Positions 58,262 through 64,000 of a stretch of DNA of 64,000 nucleotides are shown one piece after another. Origin of the DNA: Fibrobacter sp. Its GTDB lineage: Bacteria > Fibrobacterota > Fibrobacteria > Fibrobacterales > Fibrobacteraceae. Both the position numbers and the translations under genes were made by a program. Within the stretch, counting starts at the first letter, position 1, and every line of letters begins with the position of its first letter. The notes below the pieces were generated by a model that was given only the letters and a program-made list of their open reading frames with translations, did no database searches and was not told the DNA's origin. Location: positions 62,001 to 126,000 of the forward strand of contig JAKSIB010000003.1 in assembly GCA_024399065.1 (NCBI GenBank), in the 5' to 3' direction.

Positions 58262-59101
58262 TCAGCGGTTGGAACCGCGGTTGTTTAAATTTTTTGTTAG
58301 CGCGAATACTTGCATATTCACGCGGAAAACTTTTTCTACTTCCTGGGGCCTTGATGCGATAGCTGCGATGCGCTTGCGGCATTGGTCCAGTTCTTCAAGG
58401 ATTTCGCCGTAGGCGCTTTCGGACACGCCCAAGGTGAGACCTGTAAACTTTCGTTCGTTGATGGGATCGTTCTCGAGAGATTCCAGGGCGAACGTTCCCA
58501 TTTGACGGTGCATGTTGCGGATTGCTAACGGAACCATTTCGCCTTTTCCGGAACTCAGTACCTTGTCGGTCTGGCGGTAGTTCCCGTTTTCATCTTTTTG
58601 CAACAAGCCTGCCTTGGTGAGGAACTGGAGAGTCTCAGTCACTTCGGCTGCGGTAATTTTCGGTTTGCAAGCGTGGGCGATTTCCAAAGGCTTTGCGCCG
58701 GGCATTGCAGGGGCCACTTCGCGGAGCACCGGATTTTTCCAGGAGTCGAAGTAGGCGAATTCGTCGGCGCCAAGGATTTTAACCTTGAGGGCGTTTGCAA
58801 TATTTTGCATGTTGTCAAATGCCTTTTTCTTGTCGTCGTCGGTCTTTGCGTTGGCGAAGGCGACCAGGGCGCAGAAGTAGGCCGCGTCGTGTTCCGTTAA
58901 ACCGGTTGCGCTGGCGACTCGTTCTGCGGCTGCTGCGCTCAGGTTCTTTTTGCCTGTGCTTACATCTTTCAGGTACACGGGAGAGGAAAATCCGGCTTGA
59001 GCTGCAAAATCGCGCCAGGTGAATGCGGACTTTTGCTTTCGCTCCTCGTAGTACTCCTGAATGAACAGGCGATAATCTTTGTACTCTGTCACTTGCTTCA
59101 T
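58262..59101 (-). CDS. TIGR02147 family regulator (DUF4423)
   Basis: From ATG 59099-59101 (MKQVTEYKDYRLFIQEYYEERK) this 279-residue protein matches the TIGR02147 family, a paralogous family expanded in Fibrobacter succinogenes. A helix-turn-helix-like part lies at WRDFAAQAGFSSPVYLKDVSTGKKNLS; the middle has GLTEHDAAYFCALVAFANA, and a C-terminal domain carries DUF4423-like features. Eleven bases separate it from the downstream lipoprotein gene, so it likely regulates that gene or is co-transcribed. Function experimentally unknown. Confidence 0.85.
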   Translation of the reverse strand: MKQVTEYKDYRLFIQEYYEERKQKSAFTWRDFAAQAGFSSPVYLKDVSTGKKNLSAAAAERVASATGLTEHDAAYFCALVAFANAKTDDDKKKAFDNMQNIANALKVKILGADEFAYFDSWKNPVLREVAPAMPGAKPLEIAHACKPKITAAEVTETLQFLTKAGLLQKDENGNYRQTDKVLSSGKGEMVPLAIRNMHRQMGTFALESLENDPINERKFTGLTLGVSESAYGEILEELDQCRKRIAAIASRPQEVEKVFRVNMQVFALTKNLNNRGSNR

Positions 59102-59239
59102 GGAAATGAATATAAACACAAAAAACAAAAAAGTCAATAGCTAGAGTACAAAAATTTAAAAATATTTGAAAAATTGTGGTGATTTTGCGTTTTTTTATTA
59201 AAAATCAAACATTTTAGAGTACAAAAGCGGCTGTGGACG

Positions 59240-60148: not shown

Positions 60149-60260
60149 GGATCCGGAGGAATTTTTTAAACCGATTTTCACGGACACAAATTTATGAAAT
60201 AAAACCACCTTTTTTCTAACTTTCGGTAACACTTTTACTTCCCTGTGGTGTTTTACAGGT

Positions 60261-60764
60261 ATGAATAGGCAAGATATTGCAGACAGAGCAGCTTTTTCCA
60301 AGGCTTACGAGACCTTCGCACCCATGGTGATGCGTCGTTGCCTCGCACTCCTGAAGGATGAGGCTGAGGCCAGCGATATGATGCAGAATGTTTTCCTGAG
60401 AACTTATTCCAACCGCAATACTCTGGACTTGTCCAGTCCTTCCAGCCTTCTGTGGAATACGGCTACCAGGCTATGCCTGAACCGCATTCGCGATAAGAAA
60501 CGCCGCGGACTGAATGTGGACTGCAGCGAAATGCTTTTGCAGATTGCTGCCGCCGATGACGAGCTGGAGGCTTATGAATCTGCCGGTGTCCTCAGGAAAA
60601 TTTTTGCCAGGGAGCCTGAATCTACCCGCACCATGGCTGTGTTGCATTATGTCGACAACATGACTTTAGAAGAGACCGCCGAAGCCGTTGGGCTTTCCGT
60701 TAGCGGCGTCCGTAAACGTCTCCGCACTTTGCAGGAGAAGGTCAAGAACTTGGAGGTAAAGTAA
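60261..60764 (+). CDS. ECF sigma factor
   Basis: A 167-residue ECF sigma: region 2 (FSKAYETFAPMVMRRCLALLKDEAEASDMMQNVFLRTYS) and region 4 (TRTMAVLHYVDNMTLEETAEAVGLSVSGVRKRL). It recruits polymerase to specific promoters. The stop overlaps the next gene start (TAATG), a classic sigma/anti-sigma pair. Cited blocks show the region order only. The intergenic sequence before it may hold an autoregulated promoter, but I cannot assign one safely. Confidence 0.92.
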   Translation: MNRQDIADRAAFSKAYETFAPMVMRRCLALLKDEAEASDMMQNVFLRTYSNRNTLDLSSPSSLLWNTATRLCLNRIRDKKRRGLNVDCSEMLLQIAAADDELEAYESAGVLRKIFAREPESTRTMAVLHYVDNMTLEETAEAVGLSVSGVRKRLRTLQEKVKNLEVK

Positions 60765-61555
60765 TGAATTCCAGAAAGAATGGTCCTGTATCGGACTTCG
60801 AGATGGAGCGGTACCTGATTGGTGCTTTGCCCGAAAATAAAATGAAGGAACTTCGTGATCGCGAAGCTTCTGACGAAATTTTCGCTGCCCGCGTCGCTGC
60901 GCTCCGTGAACAGAATGAATCCATTTTGGCGGATCATCCTTTTGATGATCTGGCTGAGAGGTTGGGTCTTGTGGATGTGGTGGAAAATCGCCGCCCCTCC
61001 AACCTTTTTTTCTTGAAGGTGGCTGCAGCCTTGGTGATTGCCTTGGGAATTTTTTCCGCGGTAGCCTTCAGTGGCCGCAGCGAATTGGTGCAGATGGATG
61101 CAAGCCAGCAGGCTGCTGGCGCAGATGTGGCCATGGTTAGCGACGCTGATTATGGAACTCGCATTAAGGGCTTGCAATCCCGCATGGAAGTCTGGAAGAA
61201 GTCCGACGAGGGCGTGGTGCAGCTTGAAGAAATGGGCACAGCCAGCGAAGGTGACGAACTACAGCTTCGTTATGCGGTTCCTGAAAAGTGCTTTGGTATG
61301 CTGATCAGTATGGATGGTAACGGTGTGGTCACGGTTCATGTGGGCCAGGGCGCACAGGCAATTGCCTTGGAACCGGGCAAGATGAATACTTTGCCTTTCG
61401 CCTACCGTTTGGATAATGCTCCTCACTTCGAAAAGTTCTTCCTGCTTACTTCTAAGGAAGAATTCAGTGTGGATGAAAAGGAATTTGATAAGTCTTTGAA
61501 ACAGCCGAACATTCAGGTAATTTCTTTTACCGTTCGTAAGCAGGCCAAGAATTAG
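60764..61555 (+). CDS. Membrane anti-sigma-type protein
   Basis: A 263-residue protein with N-terminal cytoplasmic domain (residues 1-82; FEMERYLIGALPENKMKELRDREASDEIFAARVAALREQ), one transmembrane helix (FFLKVAAALVIALGIFSAV), and a periplasmic domain (EGDELQLRYAVPEKCFGMLISMDG, GKMNTLPFAYRLDNAP). It is the natural partner of the preceding ECF sigma. It lacks an HxxxCxxC zinc motif. The periplasmic domain resembles DUF4384-like modules; the signal is unknown. The 11-base gap before the caspase gene implies co-regulation. Confidence 0.78.
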   Translation: MNSRKNGPVSDFEMERYLIGALPENKMKELRDREASDEIFAARVAALREQNESILADHPFDDLAERLGLVDVVENRRPSNLFFLKVAAALVIALGIFSAVAFSGRSELVQMDASQQAAGADVAMVSDADYGTRIKGLQSRMEVWKKSDEGVVQLEEMGTASEGDELQLRYAVPEKCFGMLISMDGNGVVTVHVGQGAQAIALEPGKMNTLPFAYRLDNAPHFEKFFLLTSKEEFSVDEKEFDKSLKQPNIQVISFTVRKQAKN

Positions 61556-61566
61556 GGGAGGAGAAA

Positions 61567-63801
61567 ATGAATAAGACTTTGAGTAAGGTTTTTGATCACG
61601 TCATGGAATCTAGCCCGTGGACTAGCATGGTTTGCCTTTCTATTCTGGCTTTTGTCATGCTCTTTGCCATGGTGACCAACGCTCATGCTGCTACAGGTTC
61701 TGCGGGTAATGCGGTGCCTGATGTGGAAAAATCCATTGACCGTTATGTCATTGCCATTAGCGCTAACAATGGTGGTAAGGGTCGCCCCATGCTTCGTTAT
61801 GCTGAAAGCGATGCCAAGGCTTTCGCCGCAGTGCTTAAGGAAATGGGTGGGGTTCCCCGCAATAACATTTTCCTGGTGCAGGAACCTAGCGTTAGCTACC
61901 TGGAAAATCATTTTGACAATCTCGATAAGATCATTAATCTGAAGAAGGGCCAGAGCGGTCGCGATGAAGTGCTGGTTTACTACAGCGGTCACGCCGATGA
62001 AAAGGGCCTGCGCCTGGGTAACGAGGTGTACCCCTGGACTGCACTGCGTAAGCGTGTAGACGAATTGGGCGCCGACGTGAAAATTGCTGTGATCGATGCC
62101 TGCGGTTCCGGCGCTATTACTCGCGCCAAGGGCGGCGTTGCAGTCCCTGCCTTCATGGTGGACCAGAGCAGCGATATGCGTGGCTATGCTTTTATCACCA
62201 GCAGCACTCAAGACGAATCCAGCCAGGAAAGCGATAAGCTTCGCGGAAGCTTCTTCACACATTCTCTGGTCAGCGGCCTCCGAGGCGCTGGCGATGCCAG
62301 TGGTGACGGAAAAGTGACTCTGTCCGAAGCCTACCAGTTTGCCTTTAACGAGACTTTGCAAAAGACAGAAGCTACCATGGGCGGCGCCCAGCATCCTAGC
62401 CGCGATATGAATCTGGCTGGCACTGGCGACGTGGTGATGACCGATTTGCGCAGCACCAGCGCAGGCCTGGATCTTGACGAAAACGTTGACGGTCGCCTGT
62501 TCATCCGCGACGCTCACGGCGAACTGCTTGCGGAATTGAATAAGAAGTCTGGCCATGCCATGAGTTTGGGCCTTCCTGCCGGCAAGTACACTATTCGCCT
62601 GGAACGCCCGGCAGAATTCAAGGAAGCTTCTATAGTGCTGGCCGAAGGCAAACGCGAAAAGTTGGGTGGCTATCAGTTTAAGGTTGCCTCTGCTGAAAAG
62701 ACTGTTTCTCGTGGCTCCGCTCCTGCTGATAGCAATGCACTCTTCGAAGAAGGTTCCTCCATGGATTCCCTGGATCGCTATGGAAGAACTAAGGTGACTT
62801 TCAACGCCGTGGATCATGAAAAGAACCCGCGTAAGGGTGTACAGATTGGATTTTTCGTGACTGATGCTCGTGAAAATATGATTGGCACCCAGGTGAGCCT
62901 TATTGCCAATATCGCTCGAAAGGAATTCGCTGGAACCCAGATTTCTACGGGCATTAACGTAGCCAAGGATATTTCTGGTATTCAGGTGTCTGCTGGTGCA
63001 AACGTTGCCAGGGGAATGAGCGGTGGTCAGATTTCTACGGGTGTCAACGTAGCTAAGGATGCTACATTCCAGTTGGCCGAAATGAATTTTGCTGCAAAGT
63101 CCAATGTACAGCTTGGTGTAGGAAATATTTCTGATTACACGGATGTGGCTGTGGGTGTGATTAATGCGAACGCTCACTTGAATACGGCTCAGATTGGCGT
63201 ATTCAATATCGGTGGCAAGGTTAAGGGTCGCCAGATTGGCGTGTTCAATGTCTGTGGCCACTGTGAAAAGACTCCTATCGGTTTGTTCAACTTTGTGGGC
63301 AACGGTGTATGGTCTACCACCATGGGTGTCGATGAAATGGGTAACACATCTATAGACCTGAAGTTGGGTACCGCAGCCTTCTATACCAGTTTTGAATTTG
63401 GTCGTCTTTTGGATCGGAAAAAGAAATTTGAATATGAAGACCGTTTCCTGTCTGGTTTAGGTTTGGGTACTCAGTTTGGACGCTACGGAACTCACCTCAG
63501 TTTGGATTACACATTCCTGAATACTTTTGAAATTGAGGATAAACATTTCAAGAGAAATTCCTTGGATTATGTGAAGGGTGAAACTTCATTCCATCATCGC
63601 TTGCGTCTTCACGGAACTTATGAATTCGTCAAGGGATTCGGTATGACCAGTGGTTTTTCCATGAATGTGGTGACCGAAGGTTACACTAGCGAAATCCAGT
63701 TGGAACCTCGTGGTGAATGGCATGGAAACTTCGAAGTGAAGGATCGAAAAGTGAGAGCTTGGCCCGGGGTATTTGCTGGTTTCACTTTTGGACGTTTCTA
63801 A
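61567..63801 (+). CDS. Exported caspase-like (C14) protease with repeat domain
   Basis: A 744-residue protein. Signal peptide (to about residue 40, AHAATG). Residues 50-300 are a caspase/metacaspase domain: YVIAISANNG, catalytic His142 in VYYSGHADE, Cys179 in VIDACGSG. Residues 420-590 are a repeat region (GVQIGFFVTDARE, TQVSLIANIARK, TQISTGINVAKD, GQISTGVNVA, IGVFNIGG, IGVFNVCG) as in LA_2272-type surface repeats. The last 150 residues show alternating strands and end FAGFTFGRF, as outer-membrane barrels do. GGGGAGGAGA precedes the ATG. The operon with ECF sigma and anti-sigma suggests envelope-stress control. Confidence 0.86.
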   Translation: MNKTLSKVFDHVMESSPWTSMVCLSILAFVMLFAMVTNAHAATGSAGNAVPDVEKSIDRYVIAISANNGGKGRPMLRYAESDAKAFAAVLKEMGGVPRNNIFLVQEPSVSYLENHFDNLDKIINLKKGQSGRDEVLVYYSGHADEKGLRLGNEVYPWTALRKRVDELGADVKIAVIDACGSGAITRAKGGVAVPAFMVDQSSDMRGYAFITSSTQDESSQESDKLRGSFFTHSLVSGLRGAGDASGDGKVTLSEAYQFAFNETLQKTEATMGGAQHPSRDMNLAGTGDVVMTDLRSTSAGLDLDENVDGRLFIRDAHGELLAELNKKSGHAMSLGLPAGKYTIRLERPAEFKEASIVLAEGKREKLGGYQFKVASAEKTVSRGSAPADSNALFEEGSSMDSLDRYGRTKVTFNAVDHEKNPRKGVQIGFFVTDARENMIGTQVSLIANIARKEFAGTQISTGINVAKDISGIQVSAGANVARGMSGGQISTGVNVAKDATFQLAEMNFAAKSNVQLGVGNISDYTDVAVGVINANAHLNTAQIGVFNIGGKVKGRQIGVFNVCGHCEKTPIGLFNFVGNGVWSTTMGVDEMGNTSIDLKLGTAAFYTSFEFGRLLDRKKKFEYEDRFLSGLGLGTQFGRYGTHLSLDYTFLNTFEIEDKHFKRNSLDYVKGETSFHHRLRLHGTYEFVKGFGMTSGFSMNVVTEGYTSEIQLEPRGEWHGNFEVKDRKVRAWPGVFAGFTFGRF

Positions 63802-63837
63802 AAAATTGTAAATAAAGTTTTCATTATAAACTAAGGA

Positions 63838-63868
63838 AGTCTGCCGACGCTAGTTTGGCAGATTTTTT
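63838..63868 (+). terminator. Terminator after the caspase gene
   Basis: TCTGCC (63840-63845), 11-base loop, GGCAGA (63857-63862), six T. Confidence 0.88.
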
Positions 63869-63963
63869 GAATTTTAGGTGACATTTTCTAGTTGCCAAGG
63901 TGTTATACTGTTGTATTGAATGGGTGTTATTTTCTACATTTGGAGCATAGGAATAGAGAGAAT

Positions 63964-64000
63964 TTGAAAAGACTACTGACAAGCCTCTTTATGCTGCTTT
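63964..64000 (+). CDS. Start of an exported protein (3' partial)
   Basis: From TTG 63964 the frame reads LKRLLTSLFMLL, a positive N-terminus followed by a hydrophobic core as in signal peptides. It follows the caspase terminator by about 95 bases. Only 12 codons are inside the window, so nothing else can be said. Confidence 0.45.
   Translation, partial: MKRLLTSLFMLL

Follow-up and report, generated by a model that had tools for sequence, protein, structure and literature searches.

What does an exported caspase do in an operon with an extracytoplasmic function (ECF) sigma factor and a membrane anti-sigma factor? The locus at positions 60261-63801 of a 64,000-nucleotide stretch of Fibrobacter sp. 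DNA (hereafter the window; assembly GCA_024399065.1, contig JAKSIB010000003.1, positions 62,001 to 126,000 of the forward strand) raises this question. Its three co-directional open reading frames (ORFs) for the sigma factor, the anti-sigma and the caspase (Table 1), the first two overlapping by 1 nt and the last two separated by 11 nt, form one operon under its own regulator, as an initial annotation of the window had claimed. The sigma factor has regions 2 and 4 only, as ECF sigma factors do, with Sigma70_r2 (39.8 bits) and r4_2 (26.1 bits) both above the Pfam cut-off and TIGR02937 at 66.5 versus a cut-off of 42.9. The operon, its conserved promoter, the presence of unlinked caspase genes in the same regulon, the catalytic and substrate-pocket residues of the caspase and an R-x-K-G motif in the anti-sigma were all computed directly. 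The mechanism best supported by these and the following data is, we infer, cleavage of the anti-sigma by the caspase.

Using the caspase as query, we kept the best 80 of 83 loci (79 loci plus that of the window's own genome), a set that by virtue of this query is uninformative on how often caspases occur outside this context; the nearest named loci are from Fibrobacter sp., at 86-87% identity. The sigma factor was matched at E<=1e-5 in 69/80 loci, likewise the anti-sigma in 69/80, and both lie upstream of the caspase on the same strand in 67/80, which is more than chance would give. This order is kept across Fibrobacterota, Myxococcota, Acidobacteria and Eisenbacteria. The 13 exceptions are eight loci of the Fibrimonadales type, where the caspase is unlinked, two loci cut by a contig end (L022 and L064) and three that are without one of the matches (L068, L073 and L074). 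Co-occurrence in other genomes, whose absence the initial annotation had named as a refuting result, was thus found at the 67 loci. One locus (L057), in which the frame called has 13 aa, was excluded from all caspase counts and alignments, and its promoter was counted.

Among 150 Fibrobacterota genomes, both anti-sigma and caspase were found in 112, the anti-sigma without the caspase in 2, the caspase without the anti-sigma in 13 and neither in 23. The caspase is accordingly present in 112 of the 114 anti-sigma-bearing genomes, the two others being a genome that is 68% complete (G087) and one with a partial match (G136); a Fisher test of this co-occurrence ignores kinship. In one genus (g4) both genes occur in two genomes and neither in four, including a single-contig genome rated 100% complete. 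Of the 112 genomes that have both, 28 (hand-picked rather than random) were compared for gene position: the two genes are adjacent in 22 and unlinked in 6. Across the sampled genomes of the window's own genus, 64/67 carry both genes, and sigma-metacaspase operons, Fibrobacter included, had been in print since 2012 (PMC3501461), so the arrangement is not the unusual one that had been suspected. The pairing of sigma, anti-sigma and caspase is thus old and broad.

The sequence GTRACA-N16-GTGTT precedes the sigma gene in 58/69 loci, compared with 0.015 loci in a resampled control. Its spacer measures 16 nt, apart from two of the 58 loci with 15 and one with 17; in 50/58 the distance from the first base of the motif to the start codon is 35 nt. 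Eight nucleotides then separate the GTGTT element from the start codon (50/58 loci, and 8/8 unlinked caspase genes), a spacing from which the transcript would be nearly leaderless. The window's own genome (3.8 Mb) holds exactly two matches, one before the sigma gene and one just past the caspase gene, where a reversed-pattern control gave one forward and three reverse matches. Sites were found in 36/36 genomes of the genus searched for the motif, and eight genomes of other lineages have 0-3 sites each (none in two of them). In the eight Fibrimonadales-type loci the unlinked caspase gene carries the promoter with its ATG exactly at +35 in 8/8 cases (three read GTATCA for GTRACA), hence the caspase is a true member of the regulon and regulon membership is separable from operon membership. 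The sigma-anti-sigma pair lies elsewhere in 4/8 of these genomes, preceded by the promoter in 3/4.

An unlinked caspase gene with the sigma promoter also looks like any ordinary target, and ECF operons often include their outputs. The caspase could be such an output only, an outer-membrane-tethered maturation or quality-control protease for other envelope proteins (e.g. a TonB receptor or a lipoprotein), while a DegS-, Prc- or RseP-like protease activates sigma. In Fibrobacter the caspase is indeed co-produced with a TonB receptor, a lipoprotein and ExbBD; yet the anti-sigma is kept without the caspase in just 2/114 genomes, though the other targets vary by lineage, and we regard this explanation as unlikely.

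Within the locus set, the motif stands before 21/25 TonB-receptor, 18/20 DUF3450 and 11/11 flavoprotein reductase matches, and only 1/22 DUF4249 matches, DUF4249 mostly following the receptor. The cluster directly downstream in the window's own genome, under the second of its two promoter sites, encodes TonB-receptor, DUF4249, DUF3450, ExbB, ExbB and ExbD (L081:3893-11999, that is, from window position 63892 onwards, with genes beyond the window), and its DUF3450 gene lies behind those for the receptor and DUF4249 and lacks a separate site. Away from the locus, sites in other genomes mostly precede the same kinds of gene: flavoprotein or reductase-like genes in L088, L089, L090 and L092, and TonB receptor, DUF4249 and DUF3450 genes at others, with an unrelated-looking small protein in L095. 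NAD(P)H/FMN reductases of the flavodoxin fold that bear a Cys cluster recur as Fibrobacter targets (L088, L089, L090, L091:1485-2081 and L092, of which the Pfam scan covered L091 only), and the reductase targets hint at an iron or redox signal. In a Myxococcota-type genome (L070) a second site lies before a cysteine-rich predicted lipoprotein gene right after the caspase, and overall the targets besides the caspase differ between lineages.

The Peptidase_C14 match of the caspase reaches 42.2 bits (cut-off 21.4), and the model of the domain matches caspase-7 (Z 17.7, 192 residues, 2.8 A). The catalytic His142 and Cys179 pointed out in the initial annotation are, together with D177, identical in 79/79 caspases, and D82 is conserved in at least 97% of relatives (57/57 in alignment A1). 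Domain score, His/Cys dyad and fold place the protein in peptidase family C14; the retained catalytic residues predict an active protease, and the invariance of His and Cys argues that caspase activity is under selection. A sequence search against solved structures gave no match at E<=0.1; with a profile, the only matches were plant metacaspase-4, at E 0.02 (and again at 0.56), and two chains of Holliday-junction resolvases (E 0.56), the latter taken as chance. The domain also resembles that of EACC1-associated caspases (NF047832), a literal assignment to which was rejected at 56.7 bits versus a cut-off of 140. An EF-hand-like loop at D243-E254 (window 62293-62328), with its key positions conserved, suggests that the caspase may depend on calcium.

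Export and a barrel-like end had been claimed as well, and both are predicted here too: an N-terminal hydrophobic stretch (a 12-mer with mean Kyte-Doolittle value >=1.8 within the first 70 aa, a hydrophobicity criterion rather than a dedicated signal-peptide program) occurs in 79/79 caspases, and strands are predicted over residues 408-743 with pLDDT mostly 85-96. Of the traits of an outer-membrane barrel (closed, even-stranded, with a C-terminal aromatic residue), we found the strands, a Foldseek match to the OprF barrel (E 3e-4) and a final F in 63/75 complete relatives, the region being a putative barrel in a model of pTM 0.44. The proposed repeats of the LA_2272 type are LA_2272-like only, as the match to the surface repeat NF047436, of 20.1 bits, falls below the curated cut-off of 25. 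In the Acidobacteria and Eisenbacteria loci the caspase part is kept and the C-terminal part is different, so that the membrane anchor has apparently been exchanged between phyla on a common caspase part. In five loci (L072, L073, L075, L079 and L080) the common caspase part is followed by a different C-terminal region that looks like another barrel (in L080 a weak OMP_b-brl match of 27.3 bits, cut-off 28.7); the structure jobs covered the other 57 of 62 non-redundant caspases.

Where a protein has a domain ahead of a canonical outer-membrane barrel, that domain is expected in the periplasm and not on the surface, and by this analogy the caspase domain should face the periplasm. This bears on a role in killing or cell death, either at the cell surface or as a secreted protease, to which caspase fold and export signal would be suited and which the initial annotation had considered. 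Besides the expected periplasmic position, the presence of the genes in nearly all sampled members of the genus (64/67) speaks against such a role, and the regulon found, with its TonB receptor, DUF4249 lipoprotein, DUF3450/ExbB/ExbD and flavoprotein reductase, is of an uptake and redox type, with nothing in it to suggest killing or death; we consider a killing protease very improbable.

The anti-sigma was modelled (AlphaFold2) with a helical domain at residues 11-76, one transmembrane helix at 81-103, a disordered linker at 105-133 and a beta domain at 140-260. It has itself no Pfam domain above cut-off, and we assign it from its position beside the sigma gene, its predicted fold and its relatives. 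The helical N-terminal domain, which is predicted to bind sigma, and the single transmembrane helix are those of a membrane anti-sigma, with the beta domain presumably on the periplasmic side. The zinc anti-sigma (ZAS) motif HxxxCxxC is absent from the window protein and present in distant Fibrobacterota anti-sigmas. A Foldseek search returned weak beta-sandwich matches only, none at E<=0.001. In structure and domain jobs that used 42/58 anti-sigmas, 26/42 relatives matched DUF4384 (PF14326) at E<=0.1 (best 1.2e-5) and the window protein did not at that threshold; the periplasmic domain thus probably belongs with DUF4384, as judged from these relatives.

Taking DUF4384 as starting point in 60 Fibrobacterota genomes, we found a caspase match within ~1.5 kb at 24/26 places, among them distant sets of sigma, caspase and an anti-sigma of the zinc type. 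Two loci (L102 and L103) considered as caspase-DUF4384 fusions were rejected, their ORFs showing separate proteins. DUF4384 is also an accessory domain in 23/473 cyanobacterial orthocaspases (PMC8283722). That DUF4384 partners caspases both in cis (PMC8283722) and in trans is a further point against the caspase being a mere output of the regulon.

The aspartates that form the Arg/Lys pocket of metacaspases are Asp95 and Asp211 of TbMC2 (PMC6426788). They correspond to D82 and D177 of the window caspase, the hidden Markov model alignment to metacaspase-4 being weak (E 0.02). With both pocket aspartates kept, the caspase would be expected to be specific for Arg/Lys. A basic motif, R133-I-K135-G136, opens the periplasmic domain of the anti-sigma and is near-invariant in a 68-row alignment (Table 1; L022, cut by the contig end, is left out). 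The linker between transmembrane helix and K varies from 8 to 45 residues, with the motif at the end of the disordered linker, and K-G also occurs in the readable distant zinc-type anti-sigmas. The pocket aspartates, the R-x-K-G at the end of the linker, the adjacency and co-loss of the genes and the tie between DUF4384 and caspases are most simply read as cleavage at R-x-K-G by the caspase, comparable to that of RseA by DegS and of Csx30 by Csx29.

The same motif could serve as a docking site: the periplasmic caspase domain would then dock on the DUF4384 domain without cutting it and either shield the anti-sigma from other proteases or expose it to them, in the way that FoxA acts on FoxR. There is precedent for this in an outer-membrane transducer that touches the periplasmic domain of an anti-sigma (PMC11637429). 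Docking leaves the invariance of the catalytic His and Cys (79/79) unaccounted for, and we hold it to be improbable.

For cleavage of the anti-sigma we infer the locations, the cleavage and its site, the later proteolysis and the signal as follows. The ECF sigma would be held by the single-pass anti-sigma, whose C-terminal DUF4384-type domain would lie in the periplasm, and the secreted caspase would be tethered to the outer membrane by its C-terminal barrel with the protease domain toward the periplasm. An envelope signal, sensed perhaps by the barrel or by the beta domain of the anti-sigma, would allow the caspase to cut the anti-sigma where its disordered linker ends, at R-x-K-G. Intramembrane and cytoplasmic proteases of the host would then complete its removal and release sigma, which would read the GTRACA-N16-GTGTT promoters, including that of its own operon, to give more caspase and, in Fibrobacter, TonB-dependent receptor, DUF4249 lipoprotein, DUF3450/ExbB/ExbD motor and flavoprotein reductases. 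To this self-amplifying envelope signalling module, in which an outer-membrane-tethered caspase frees sigma, we give close to an even chance.

Several points weigh against it. The R of the motif is replaced by L in L077 and L078, and the distant L099, L100 and L119 lack it. K145, K146 and K259 are about equally conserved, so that conservation does not set a basic residue apart; lying directly before the first strand, R-x-K-G may be a structural or docking site. A protease that is a sigma target could be output only, and a caspase in the outer membrane must reach a substrate in the inner membrane. In the caspase model, the loop after the catalytic Cys (181-218) has pLDDT <50, and a closed barrel and its membrane side are putative.

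Table 1. Features of the sigma/anti-sigma/caspase operon and its surroundings (window positions)
Feature	Position	Strand	Evidence
ECF promoter of operon, GTAACA-N16-GTGTT	60226..60252	+	start codon at +35 of motif; one of two exact own-genome matches
ECF sigma factor, 167 aa	60261..60764	+	PF04542, PF08281, TIGR02937
Membrane anti-sigma factor, 263 aa	60764..61555	+	AlphaFold2 model pLDDT 83.8; DUF4384 match in 26/42 relatives (E<=0.1)
R133-I-K135-G136, basic motif at start of periplasmic domain, candidate cleavage site	61160..61171	+	R 66/68, K 68/68, G 68/68
Exported caspase (C14) with predicted C-terminal beta-barrel, 744 aa	61567..63801	+	PF00656; AlphaFold2 pLDDT 78.4, pTM 0.44
Caspase domain, residues 58-298	61738..62460	+	H142, D177, C179 in 79/79 relatives; D82 conserved; fold match
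Beta-sandwich, residues 299-374	62461..62688	+	DSSP on model
Beta-barrel region, residues 408-743	62788..63798	+	LA_2272-like strand repeats ~422-566, then eight strands 581-743
Intrinsic terminator, hairpin then T run	63834..63874	+	dG -17.0 for 63830-63878
Second promoter, GTGACA-N16-GTGTT	63878..63904	+	other exact own-genome match
TonB-dependent receptor gene start (TTG proposed)	63964..64000	+	ORFs; Plug PF07715

The hairpin with its T run, which a terminator scan limited to loops of 3-8 did not list, sits between the caspase gene and the second promoter. Near the operon, on the minus strand, a TIGR02147 (Fsuc_second) family protein with DUF4423 is encoded at 58262-59137.

The module is real, conserved and partly known already. 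Operons of a sigma-70 factor and a metacaspase have been described in Myxococcus xanthus, Anaeromyxobacter, Haliangium, Sorangium, Ralstonia and Fibrobacter (Asplund-Samuelsson 2012, PMC3501461), and with Fibrobacter named they are very probably of the same operon type. Section 13 of that paper treats the sigma-metacaspase pairing only; an anti-sigma, a promoter, export, a barrel or a mechanism do not figure in it. ECF54 (PMC8999054) is an ECF sigma with a caspase-like gene nearby and peptidases and CHAT in its context, described there without an anti-sigma. In FecIRA/FoxIRA (PMC11637429) an outer-membrane protein with a periplasmic domain likewise works with a membrane anti-sigma and an ECF sigma that has a TonB receptor in its regulon; in that system a TonB receptor carrying a signalling domain acts as transducer, whereas the third gene of the window operon encodes a caspase barrel protein.

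A literature search, with most subscription journals outside its coverage, found no paper in which a caspase cleaves a membrane anti-sigma or an anti-sigma contains DUF4384. Relative to the literature covered, the promoter and the regulon are new, as are the placing of unlinked caspase genes under that promoter, the link to DUF4384 as partner and the candidate cleavage site. With somewhat less confidence than in the module itself, we propose a new class of transmembrane signalling in which a single barrel protein of the outer membrane would act as both sensor and site-1 protease: its Arg/Lys-specific periplasmic caspase would cut the DUF4384 domain off the inner-membrane anti-sigma and so switch on its own operon. 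The class would reach across Fibrobacterota, Myxococcota and Acidobacteria at the least, the same caspase being joined to different barrels. The role of bacterial caspases is largely open, and the module gives one widespread exported type a definite partner, promoter and small target set, by which substrate, specificity and signal become directly testable. If the cleavage is true, caspases would be regulatory in the bacterial envelope rather than agents of cell death, and ECF signalling would gain an outer-membrane sensor-protease.

DiCASP is cytoplasmic and RNA-guided, with a CHAT-type protease and an inhibitor that is not membrane-bound, and DegS is an inner-membrane serine protease encoded outside the rseA operon. 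Unlike these, the window protease is a cysteine caspase, predicted to be exported and tethered, and is encoded beside its presumed target, a membrane anti-sigma. What DiCASP (Csx29, the Csx30 inhibitor and CASP-sigma; PMC10028731) shares with it is a caspase-fold protease thought to relieve the inhibition of an ECF-type sigma in an autoregulated system, and what the RseA/DegS/RseP system of sigma-E (described in part in PMC10028731) shares is an envelope signal and a site-1 cut of a single-pass anti-sigma, here proposed. On the best reading, the module would therefore be the extracytoplasmic counterpart of both DegS/RseA and Csx29/Csx30.

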